From Acetobacteraceae bacterium (GTDB taxonomy: Bacteria > Pseudomonadota > Alphaproteobacteria > Acetobacterales > Acetobacteraceae): a stretch of DNA of 39,396 nucleotides. A program made the position numbers and the translations under genes. The stretch covers positions 1 through 39,396 of the forward strand of contig JANXRN010000166.1 of the NCBI GenBank assembly GCA_025352995.1. The letters are read 5' to 3'. How positions within the stretch are numbered: position 1 is the first letter of the stretch; every line of letters starts with the position of its first letter. Of this stretch, positions 23,555 through 29,814 are shown piece after piece. The notes beneath the pieces are model-generated. The model was not told the DNA's origin. It saw nothing but the letters and a program-made list of their open reading frames with translations, and searched no databases.

Positions 23555-23566
23555 CGATGGGTGATC

Positions 23567-23632
23567 TCACCAAGTGTCGACGAAAGGGTACCTCTTACCG
23601 GGGCGGGGCGCCACTGGCGGTACCCGCTTCAA
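23567..23632 (-). pseudogene. relic of the 3-prime end of a carboxyltransferase / acyl-CoA carboxylase gene
   Basis: Encodes LKRVPPVAPRPGKRYPFVDTW*; intact carboxylase at 24484 ends LKRVPKPAARAGKKYPFVDTW*. 16 of 21 residues identical by hand alignment. Confidence 0.8.
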
Positions 23633-23787
23633 GCAGCAGACGATCGCCCGATAGTTCGTGCCGATGAAATCCCGCGCCAAGGCCGGAGCTTGCGCCGTTG
23701 GCCATGGTCGTCAGGGTCATCGGTGATCCCTCGCTGTCGTCGGCACCGTTATTCGATATCGCTTTCCGTGCCGCAACCTTGTATCAG

Positions 23788-23805
23788 TGACCAACTGGAT
23801 GGTCA
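23788..23805. promoter_or_regulatory. candidate vapBC operator: inverted repeat TGACCA-N6-TGGTCA
   Basis: tgaccaactggatggtca directly before GGAGG RBS (23806-23810) and GTG start (23816). Confidence 0.45.
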
Positions 23806-23815
23806 GGAGGTTGCC

Positions 23816-24483: not shown

Positions 24484-27400
24484 TCACCACGTATCGACAA
24501 ACGGGTATTTCTTCCCCGCCCGCGCTGCCGGCTTGGGCACCCGCTTTAGGCCGCGCGCGATCCAGCCACGGGTGGCGGCGGGGTCGATCACGTCGTCGAG
24601 GCCACCGCCAGTGACCGCGTTGACCGCGCGCGCGCTTTCATAGGCGCTGCCGACCCTTCGATCGAATTCGGCGCGGCGGACTTCGGGATCGGGGATGGCG
24701 GCGAGTTCGTGGCGGTAGCCGAGTTTGACCGATCCTTCGATGTTCATCCCGGCAAATTCGGCGGTTGGCCACGCAACGGTGAAGAAGCCGATCAGGGTGC
24801 TGGCGCCGCACATCGCCTGCCCGCCCAACCCATAGGCTTTGCGGGCGATGACGCAGAACAGCGGCACGGTGAGGTTAGCGCCAACATTGAACAGGCGGAC
24901 GCAATGGCGCACCAGCGCAGTGCGTTCGGCGTCCGGCCCGACCATGATGCCGGGGCAGTCCATCAGGCTCAGCACTGGGATATCGAACGCGTCACATAAT
25001 TGCAGGAAGCGCGCGCCCTTGTCGGCGCCGTCCGAATCAATCGCGCCGGCCAGATGATGCGGGTTGTTGGCGATCACCCCCATCGGCTTGCCTTCGATGC
25101 GGATGAAGGCTGTGATGATGCCGATGCCGAATTTCTCGCGAATTTCGAGCACCGAATCCTTATCCGCCAAGGTGTGGAGGATTTCCCGCATATCGTAGAG
25201 CCGCAAACGGTTTTCCGGCACCGCGTGGCGCAGGGTGCGCTGGTCGTGGGCTTCCCATTTATCGGTCGCGCCCTGGAAGTAGGACAGATATTTCTTCGCC
25301 GCCTGCACGGCTGCGGCTTCATCCTTGACCAGGATATCGACGACGCCATTTGGCACCTGGAACGACATCGGGCCGACTTCTTCCGGCGTGTAAATGCCAA
25401 GCCCGCCGCCTTCAATCATCGCCGGGCCGCCCATGGCGAGCGTGGTGCCCTCGGTCGCGATAATTACGTCACAGCAGGCCACCAAAGCGGTGTTGCCGGC
25501 AAAGCAGCGGCCATTGACCACCGCGATCATCGGCACCAGCCCGCTCAACTGCGACAGGCTGGTGAAAGTGTGGGTGTCCATCGCGACGCGCGGGCCGTTA
25601 TTATCGTCGCCGGGCCGGCCGCCGCCGCCTTCGCCGAACAAGATCAGCGGCAGGCGGAAGCGCTGGGCGAGTTCAAACATGCGGTCTTGCTTGTAGTGGT
25701 TGCGCCCGCCCTGGGTGCCGGCCAGAACAGTGTAATCATAATGCACCAGCGCCACGCGCGAGATTTCTTCGCCGAACAGATCGCCGTTGACGGTGCACAT
25801 GCCGGCAACCACGCCATCGGCCGGGGTGGTGCGGCGTAATGTATCGATATCGTAACGCTGATGCTGGCGGGCGACGATCAGCGGCCAATATTCGTCGAAC
25901 GATCCGGGATCGACCAGTTCGGCAATATTCTCCCGCGCCATGCGGTAGCCGCGTTCCTTGCGGCGACGCACCGCCTCCGGGCGGTTTTCATCCAGGGTGA
26001 AAGCGTGGCGGGCGATATTTTCGGCCAGATCGGGACGGATGAAATCAGGGTCAAGCGCTTCGGCGGCCGCGATTGCGCCGCCGGCGACCTCGGCCTGCTC
26101 AACGAAGACGATCGGGTAGCCTTCGCGCACCACATCGCCGGCGGCCATGGTGACGCCGCGGATGATGCCGCTATGCGGGGCGGCGATGACGTGTTCCATC
26201 TTCATCGCTTCGACCACCGCCAATTGCTGGCCGTGGCGCACCTGGTCCCCCACGGCGACGCTGATGGCGATGATGGTGCCCTGGATCGGGCTGGCGACCC
26301 CCGCCGAGCCATCCGGGCCGATCATTTCGGGGGCGGCCTGGGCGGTGGTTGCAGGTTGTTCGGATTTCACCTGGGCGTCATGGGCGAACAGCGCCAGCGG
26401 GTCTCGGCTGGTGACGCGGGCGCCGGCGAAGCCTGCGGCCGGGGCTGCGGCTGGCGGCGGGGCGGCGGCGACAAAACGGTCGCGGCCTTCGGGACTTGCT
26501 GCCAGGTCCTTGAGGTTTTCATCGACCCAGCGCGTATGCACCAGGCCGGCCGCGAAATCCGGATGCGCCAGGATATTTTGCAAAAACGGAATGTTGGTTC
26601 CCACCCCTTCAAGCCGAAATTCACTAAGCGCGCGCGCCGTTTTGCCGATGGCATCGGCGAAGTTTCGCGTAGGAGAGCGGCAGATCACCTTGGCAAGCAG
26701 GCTGTCAAACATGTCGCTGGTTTTGTAGCCGGCATAGCCGAAGCCATCGGTGCGCACGCCGGGGCCGTTCGGGGCTTCATAGACGCTGAGCGTGCCGCCG
26801 GCCGGGCGGAAAGTTCCGTTGGGCCGCAAGGTTTCCATATTGACCCGCGCCTGGATAGCGTAGCCGCGCAGCGCAATCGGCGCATCAAGCCCGAGCGAGG
26901 CCAGGGTTTCACCCTCCGCCAGCCGGATTTGGGTTTGCACCAGATCGACGCCGGTGACTTCCTCGGTGACGGTGTGTTCGACTTGCAGCCGTGCGTTGGC
27001 TTCGATGAACACGAAAGGCTGCACGCCTGCGCGGCCAGACACATCAACCAGGAACTCGAACGTGCCAAGATTTTCGTAGCCGACGCCGCGCGCGAAACGA
27101 ACCGCGGCATCCAGGATCGCGTCGCGAATGCCAGCATCAAGGCCGGGCGCGGGCGCAATTTCGATGACTTTCTGAAAGCGCCGCTGGGCGCTGCATTCGC
27201 GCTCCCCCAGATGGATCACCTGGCCGGTGCGATCGCCGAGCATTTGCACTTCGATATGGCGCGCGCGCGGGATGAACTCCTCGACATAGACATCTTCGCG
27301 GCCGAAGGCGGCGCGGGCTTCGGACTGGCAGCGCTTGAAGGCGTTGTCGATTTCGTCGGCCGCCAGCACCGCGCGGGTGCCGCGCCCGCCGCCGCCGGCG

Positions 27401-27882
27401 ACCGCCTTGATGATCATCGCACCGCCGTCGCCCAGCGTTGCGAAGAAGGCGCGGGCTTCTTCCACGGTGATGGCGTGGTCCAGCCCACGGATCACCGGCA
27501 CGCCGGCGGCAATAGCGGCTTCCCGGGCGCGCGCTTTGTCGCCGAATAAATCGAGATGGTCTGGGCTGGGTCCCACGAACAGCAGCCCGGCATCAGCGCA
27601 GGCGCGGGCGAAATCGGCGCGCTCGGCGAGGAACCCGTAGCCCGGATGGACGCCATCGGCGCCGGTCGCCTGGGCGGCGGCGATGATGCCAGCAATGTCG
27701 AGATAGGAAGCCGCGCCCTTCCCCGTGAGCGCGAAGGCTTCATCGGCGACGCGGACATGCAAGCTCAGCGCATCATCTTCGGAATGCACCGCGACGGTGG
27801 GAATACCGAGATCGGCGGCGGCGCGGGCAATGCGGATGGCGATTTCGCCGCGATTGGCGATCAGCAATTTGGTCAGGCGCAT
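24484..27882 (-). CDS. single-chain acyl-CoA carboxylase: biotin carboxylase - BCCP - carboxyltransferase
   Basis: KLLIANRGEIAIRIARAA; ARLQVEHTVTEEVTGVDLVQ; VVEAMKMEHVIAA biotinyl motif; CT domain YKQDRMFELAQRFRLPLILFGEGGGGRPGD. Confidence 0.93.
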   Translation of the reverse strand: MRLTKLLIANRGEIAIRIARAAADLGIPTVAVHSEDDALSLHVRVADEAFALTGKGAASYLDIAGIIAAAQATGADGVHPGYGFLAERADFARACADAGLLFVGPSPDHLDLFGDKARAREAAIAAGVPVIRGLDHAITVEEARAFFATLGDGGAMIIKAVAGGGGRGTRAVLAADEIDNAFKRCQSEARAAFGREDVYVEEFIPRARHIEVQMLGDRTGQVIHLGERECSAQRRFQKVIEIAPAPGLDAGIRDAILDAAVRFARGVGYENLGTFEFLVDVSGRAGVQPFVFIEANARLQVEHTVTEEVTGVDLVQTQIRLAEGETLASLGLDAPIALRGYAIQARVNMETLRPNGTFRPAGGTLSVYEAPNGPGVRTDGFGYAGYKTSDMFDSLLAKVICRSPTRNFADAIGKTARALSEFRLEGVGTNIPFLQNILAHPDFAAGLVHTRWVDENLKDLAASPEGRDRFVAAAPPPAAAPAAGFAGARVTSRDPLALFAHDAQVKSEQPATTAQAAPEMIGPDGSAGVASPIQGTIIAISVAVGDQVRHGQQLAVVEAMKMEHVIAAPHSGIIRGVTMAAGDVVREGYPIVFVEQAEVAGGAIAAAEALDPDFIRPDLAENIARHAFTLDENRPEAVRRRKERGYRMARENIAELVDPGSFDEYWPLIVARQHQRYDIDTLRRTTPADGVVAGMCTVNGDLFGEEISRVALVHYDYTVLAGTQGGRNHYKQDRMFELAQRFRLPLILFGEGGGGRPGDDNNGPRVAMDTHTFTSLSQLSGLVPMIAVVNGRCFAGNTALVACCDVIIATEGTTLAMGGPAMIEGGGLGIYTPEEVGPMSFQVPNGVVDILVKDEAAAVQAAKKYLSYFQGATDKWEAHDQRTLRHAVPENRLRLYDMREILHTLADKDSVLEIREKFGIGIITAFIRIEGKPMGVIANNPHHLAGAIDSDGADKGARFLQLCDAFDIPVLSLMDCPGIMVGPDAERTALVRHCVRLFNVGANLTVPLFCVIARKAYGLGGQAMCGASTLIGFFTVAWPTAEFAGMNIEGSVKLGYRHELAAIPDPEVRRAEFDRRVGSAYESARAVNAVTGGGLDDVIDPAATRGWIARGLKRVPKPAARAGKKYPFVDTW

Positions 27883-27895
27883 AAGGGTCAGGTTC

Positions 27896-28854
<959 letters not shown>

Positions 28855-28855
<1 letters not shown>

Positions 28856-29814
28856 CAGACCAGCTTCCAGCAGGCGGCGCTGTGGCCGTCGGACAGGGTG
28901 ACAGTCGGCGGCGCCTCGGCACATTTATCCATCCGCTGAGTGCAGCGCGCGGCGAAGCGGCAGCCGCTGGGTGGATCGATCAGGCTCGGCGGCTGGCCAG
29001 CAATGGCCACCAGCCGGGTGCGCTTGGCGCCGAGGCGCGGGATCGCGGCCAGCAGCGCCTTTGTGTACGGGTGCGACGGGGTGCGGTAGATCGCCCGCAC
29101 TGGCCCGGTTTCGATGATCTGGCCGGCATACATCACCGCGATGCGCCGACACAGGCTCGCCGCCACCCCGAGATCATGGGTAATCAGGATAATCCCGGCG
29201 CCGGTGTCGGCCTGGATGGTGCGCAGCAAATTGATGATCTGGACCTGGATGGTAACATCGAGCGCGGTGGTCGGCTCATCAGCGACCAGCAGGCGCGGGG
29301 TGCAGCCGATCGCCATGGCCGCAACGATGCGCTGGCGCTGGCCGCCGGAAAACTGATGCGGGTAATCGCCCAGCCGATCGGCCGGCGATGGCAGGCGCAC
29401 CCGTTGCAACACATCAACCACTGCCGAACGCAGCGCGGCGCCCCGGGCAATGTCGTGGTTGCGCAATGGCGATCCGACCTGATCGCCGATCGAGAACACC
29501 GGGTTCAAGGACGTCATCGGGTCCTGCATGATCATCGCGATCTTGCGGCCCCTGATGTCGCGCGCCAGGGCGCTTTCGGACAAGGTCGTGAGTTCCTGCC
29601 CGTCGAGCTTGATCGACCCACCGACAATCCGGCCGGAGCCTTTCGGCAACAGGCGCAGCAGCGACAGGCCGGTCAGCGTTTTGCCGGAGCCGGACTCACC
29701 CACCAGCCCCAGCGTTTCGCCCTCGGCAACATCGAAGCTGATGCCATCGACAGCACGCAGGACACCACGCTTGAGATGGAGATGGGTTTGCAGATCGCGG
29801 ACCGACAGCAGCAT
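28855..29814 (-). CDS. ABC transporter ATP-binding protein (DppD-like), transporter 2
   Basis: [63 protein letters not shown]. Confidence 0.93.

Follow-up and report, generated by a model that had tools for sequence, protein, structure and literature searches.

One-sided events of homology-facilitated illegitimate recombination have been described (PMC3240628), and the same mechanism has been applied to the T6SS effector arrays of Vibrio, where the 3′ end of an effector gene is shifted back and remains of the displaced gene are left (PMC5361080). The locus considered here lies in a window of 39,396 nucleotides (the whole stretch of DNA that was analysed) from a bacterium of the Acetobacteraceae. 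As we read it, it resembles these cases in that a new block would be joined beside a homologous anchor, with the remains of the displaced gene downstream (PMC3240628, PMC5361080). It differs from them in that the anchor, the donor and the breakpoints are ones that we infer, and in that the remnant is the tail of a metabolic gene, 22 codons long. The single-chain long-chain acyl-CoA carboxylase of PDB entry 4rcn has the same BC-BCCP-CT layout as the intact gene of the window, whereas the relic corresponds to the final 21 residues only. Closer still are two congeners (G001 and G003) in which a CoA-transferase gene of the same cluster has been deleted and only the last codons remain next to an intact neighbour; unlike the locus of the window, these sites have no toxin-antitoxin pair and no second copy of that intact gene alongside.

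The relic occupies positions 23567 to 23632 of the minus strand. Its translation is LKRVPPVAPRPGKRYPFVDTW followed by a stop, and when the minus strand is translated over 23567-23815 the end reads RAIVCCLKRVPPVAPRPGKRYPFVDTW and the same stop. Homology, substitution pattern and quartet analyses point to the last 21 codons and TGA of a single-chain acyl-CoA carboxylase of a second lineage. Aligned with the C-terminus of the intact carboxylase (24484-27909), which is of the same family, on the same strand and less than 1 kb away, the relic has 44 of 66 bases and 16 of 21 residues identical, or 41 of 63 coding bases plus the common TGA. Among the 22 base differences, 14 are at third positions, and the codons show 10 synonymous differences and five residue changes. 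Recomputation gave the same match counts as the earlier note, which had reported at least seven synonymous differences; it had also placed the relic stop 12 bp before the monooxygenase start, and the gap at 23555-23566 agrees. When the whole window was shuffled (n = 326), matches to the intact tail reached 9 of 21 residues at most, against the 16 of 21 observed, and a chance origin of the match is excluded. Carboxylase homology starts at about 23634-23637 and amounts to 66-68 nt in total, confined to one gene end; upstream of that point we found no carboxylase likeness beyond a marginal R-x-I next to the relic. The reading frame of the intact enzyme is absent, with in-frame stops upstream in the 0.18 kb that lead to vapB. 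A DNA search with 23555-23815 against 200 genomes of the family yielded carboxylase tails and, apart from these, nothing but short chance matches. The relic thus classes as a 3′ pseudogene fragment, the remnant of a gene of the single-chain acyl-CoA carboxylase family, and would have no protein function.

We then asked how the relic had diverged. In a simulation of unconstrained change, 22 nucleotide differences from the intact tail are expected to produce 12.9 amino acid changes; five are seen, and none of 4000 simulations gave a value as low. The comparison with the tail of the congener G004 (16 nucleotide and four amino acid changes) likewise shows fewer amino acid changes than expected without selection, as does that with G030, from an outgroup genus (15 and five; P 0.001 in the same simulation). 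Few residue changes next to many base changes indicate that most of the divergence accrued while both sequences were coding and under protein-level selection, as the earlier note had argued against the decay of a fresh duplicate. Moreover, the DNA of the relic alone is nearer to the carboxylase 3′ ends of other Acetobacteraceae (79-80% over 66 nt) than to that of the neighbouring gene; among the loci compared, it matches locus L078 at 80% over 66 nt (E 8e-11) and G030 at 79% (E 1e-9). Of the 63 coding bases, the relic shares 50 with L078, 48 with G030 and 47 with G004. In no quartet did more than 31% of bootstraps (range 0-31%) make the relic and its neighbour's tail sisters. When L078 or G030 was the fourth member, the relic joined the outgroup in 76-95%; with other outgroups it went with G004 or nowhere. 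The full-length tree places the relic at the base with 44% support, from 63 bases that are too few for a firm position, so that only the negative statement is firm, namely that relic and neighbour are not sisters. It is therefore not a fresh duplicate: the neighbouring copy, which would be the closest relative of a recent tandem duplicate, is not the closest relative here.

In the window, DppBCDF-like transport genes lie upstream of the carboxylase and a luciferase-like monooxygenase cluster lies downstream. Going by database titles, the nearest loci come mostly from Acetobacteraceae metagenome-assembled genomes. The DppF-like ABC ATPase (27896-28924, minus strand; domain match) is the gene that directly precedes the monooxygenase in congeners, and the monooxygenase itself (PF00296; 22529-23554, minus strand), recognized by its Pfam match and from the relatives' loci, is the first gene after the relic. 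In G001, G003 and G004, dppF is followed by the monooxygenase within about 60-75 bp and no carboxylase lies between them; in G004 the monooxygenase ATG comes 75 bp after the point where the dppF alignment ends and about 60 bp after the dppF stop. A single uninterrupted stretch in congeners is thus orthologous to both flanks of the window block, which argues against a chimeric contig. The last part of dppF in the window (27896-27945) is unlike that of relatives and carries, just before the carboxylase, a small perfect inverted repeat, TCACGC-GTT-GCGTGA. The earlier note had supposed that an ancestral carboxylase abutted the monooxygenase operon and had suggested looking in relatives for the arrangement DppBCDF-carboxylase-monooxygenase without vapBC. 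This arrangement did not turn up: none of 29 other monooxygenase homologues, each with at least 331 bp of upstream sequence, is preceded by a carboxylase (17 of the 29 have a DppF-like ATPase upstream), and a search downstream of 80 carboxylase loci likewise turned up no orthologue of the monooxygenase. Given these counts and the abutment of dppF and monooxygenase in congeners, a carboxylase beside the monooxygenase would hold for this lineage only, and the idea of a conserved ancestral operon is not supported, no other genome having been found with it. In G030 and G037, which belong to outgroup genera, a CoA-transferase and a carboxylase come after the orthologous dpp operon (77-87% protein identity). 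A distant parallel occurs in another family of the same class (G070, L016:1489-6199), where a 57% carboxylase paralogue is followed after 42 bp by a different luciferase-family gene and then by a PIN-like gene on the other strand.

The intact gene (24484-27909, minus strand) encodes a single chain with BC, BCCP and CT domains, and its best full-length sequence match, the closest solved relative, is 4rcn; by domains and similarity it is predicted to be a single-chain long-chain acyl-CoA carboxylase. The likelier start is the ATG at MRLTKLLIANRGE, a few codons into an open reading frame that begins with GTG. The gene groups with G004 and G003 in its BC part, in its CT part and in its last 95 codons, and this agreement in three separate parts makes the intact carboxylase native to the genus, at a different address. 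A foreign tail on it was considered and rejected: identity falls over the last 90 codons, yet the tree keeps the tail with congeners, and no clear internal breakpoint was found in the gene. The carboxylase of G001 (L040:1445-4840) is a mosaic, about 82-89% identical to G004 in its 5′ part and about 71-87% in most of its 3′ half, with a carboxyltransferase part that groups weakly with the outgroup L089 and not with G004 or G003. This suggests a foreign or replaced 3′ half and, as a consequence, that this gene does recombine.

The congeners have their carboxylase away from dpp, with a CoA-transferase, an esterase or both next to it. The order in G004 is M19 peptidase, CoA-transferase, carboxylase, esterase. 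On contig C500 of the window's genome, the order is M19 peptidase, a second vapBC, CoA-transferase and esterase, and the carboxylase is absent. This second vapBC-like pair (L174:2441-3174) is unrelated to the first and sits between the M19 peptidase and the CoA-transferase, a gap of only 23 bp in G004. Each of the two sites involved in the carboxylase move hence carries a PIN toxin that is absent from the matching G004 site. In G001 and G003 (L040 upstream of 1445, L039 upstream of 5210), the CoA-transferase is reduced to the tail SIIGTRAV before the carboxylase, and after the carboxylase of G003 the esterase is represented by no more than a weak match to its start.

Between the intact carboxylase and the relic, on the opposite strand, lie a VapB-like antitoxin gene of the Phd/YefM family (PF02604; 23816-24058, plus strand) and a VapC toxin gene with a PIN domain (PF01850; 24058-24480, plus strand), both recognized by Pfam matches; the two genes overlap, a PIN toxin adjoining its antitoxin gene as in VapBC type II toxin-antitoxin systems. 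VapC was not found at the matching site in congeners, and its best homologues within the family are at 57-58%. A near-identical vapBC on plasmids was sought and discarded, the best match being only 60%. The junction between the relic and the vapB start (23633-23815) is free of carboxylase homology except for the marginal few codons by the relic, and presumably holds the vapB promoter; a promoter and terminator scan found nothing. An SDR-like peptide, MTLTTMANGASSGLGAGF, in another frame upstream of the relic has no Pfam match and was taken as chance. When both flanks of 39 PIN-toxin loci were compared (those of the window, C500 and others in G000, the window's genome, and in G001 and G004), a gene end was repeated at the window locus alone (E 2e-9, with a background of about 1e-5). 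We are thus dealing with a single scar, and tail duplication is not a general habit of vapBC. The window's genome (4.5 Mb) has 30 PIN-domain matches, against 11-19 in three congeners, so a PIN toxin at a rearranged site is not surprising.

We propose, with a probability of about 0.5, that in this lineage the space between dppF and the monooxygenase once held a carboxylase of an older branch, that the present gene displaced it, and that the 66 bp are the 3′ end of the displaced gene. According to this scenario, the dpp operon would first have carried a CoA-transferase and a carboxylase, as it does in related genera. The native carboxylase, with vapBC behind it, would then have come into the dpp site by recombination, the far end of which may have fallen among the old gene's final codons. 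The old carboxylase would have been removed save for its tail of 22 codons, whose stop codon and trailing bases would now serve as the leader of the monooxygenase gene, and the present carboxylase would have been lost from its other site. This is the simplest account that uses all of the observations, namely the homology, the synonymous divergence, the genus-native present gene, the dppF-monooxygenase junction of congeners and the CoA-transferase/esterase site that lacks a carboxylase. The SIIGTRAV tail of G001 and G003, another such scar in the same genus, and the mosaic carboxylase of G001 speak for it. Against it, the intermediate with the old carboxylase adjoining the monooxygenase is kept in no genome that we found, 63 bases are too few to place the relic firmly, a donor carrying carboxylase and vapBC was not seen, and the intact gene has a tail that does not stand out clearly as foreign from its body. 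The scar itself is solid, and the donor, the anchor, the order of the steps and any role of vapBC are what we infer.

The relic may instead have come with vapBC, as a foreign segment of vapBC and carboxylase tail that landed downstream of the present carboxylase, with no complete second carboxylase ever at this site. We regard this as possible but doubtful. Congeners lack vapBC here and its homologues elsewhere are only 57-60% similar, the truncated end of the relic faces the vapB upstream region, and the intact gene is genus-native throughout. However, the same carboxylase family on both sides of vapBC is then unexplained unless homology guided the insertion, no donor was found, and the relic joins the monooxygenase start with that gene's native leader lost, as though it had already been resident there. 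It is unlikely that two old copies were reciprocally lost, the present gene being the dpp-linked copy, the congeners having kept the other, and the relic stemming from a third. The dpp - CoA-transferase - carboxylase linkage does occur in outgroup genera, and the DNA before the present ATG (AGGAACCTGACC) resembles the dppF/CoA-transferase junction of G030 (AGGACCTGACC), but the nearest relative of the present gene is the non-dpp copy of the congeners and not the dpp-linked copies of the outgroups, and three copies are needed.

The geometry of the locus (gene, restored end, cargo, displaced end) also fits a vapBC mini-element that, in the manner of tRNA islands, entered the carboxylase, restored its 3′ end and left the displaced end as the relic. 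Nevertheless, the 0.85-kb insert holds only vapBC and no integrase, the two gene ends, at 66% identity, do not form an identical direct repeat, the tree still puts the restored tail among the congeners, and a repeated tail occurs at one of the 39 PIN-toxin loci in three genomes, which makes this origin extremely improbable. A related idea, in which vapBC is a mobile pair that lands by homology at the end of the carboxylase gene, swaps in a working 3′ end, leaves the old one and spares its target without an integrase, is very unlikely. Equally hard to credit as the integrative element is a recent duplicate of the present carboxylase that was truncated and then decayed neutrally: family, strand and proximity would suit it, but the relic is closer to G004, G030 and L078 than to its neighbour, the substitutions are mostly synonymous, and the quartets disfavour sisterhood.

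Coming back to the displacement that we favour, no new system is revealed. The relic is an ordinary scar of gene-cluster rearrangement, although an unusually legible one and more informative than most relics, and a very short gene end proved assignable through its synonymous changes. Altogether, the locus is a legible record of the reshuffling of catabolic clusters between close species, in which one carboxylase has two addresses and fragments mark its former neighbours.
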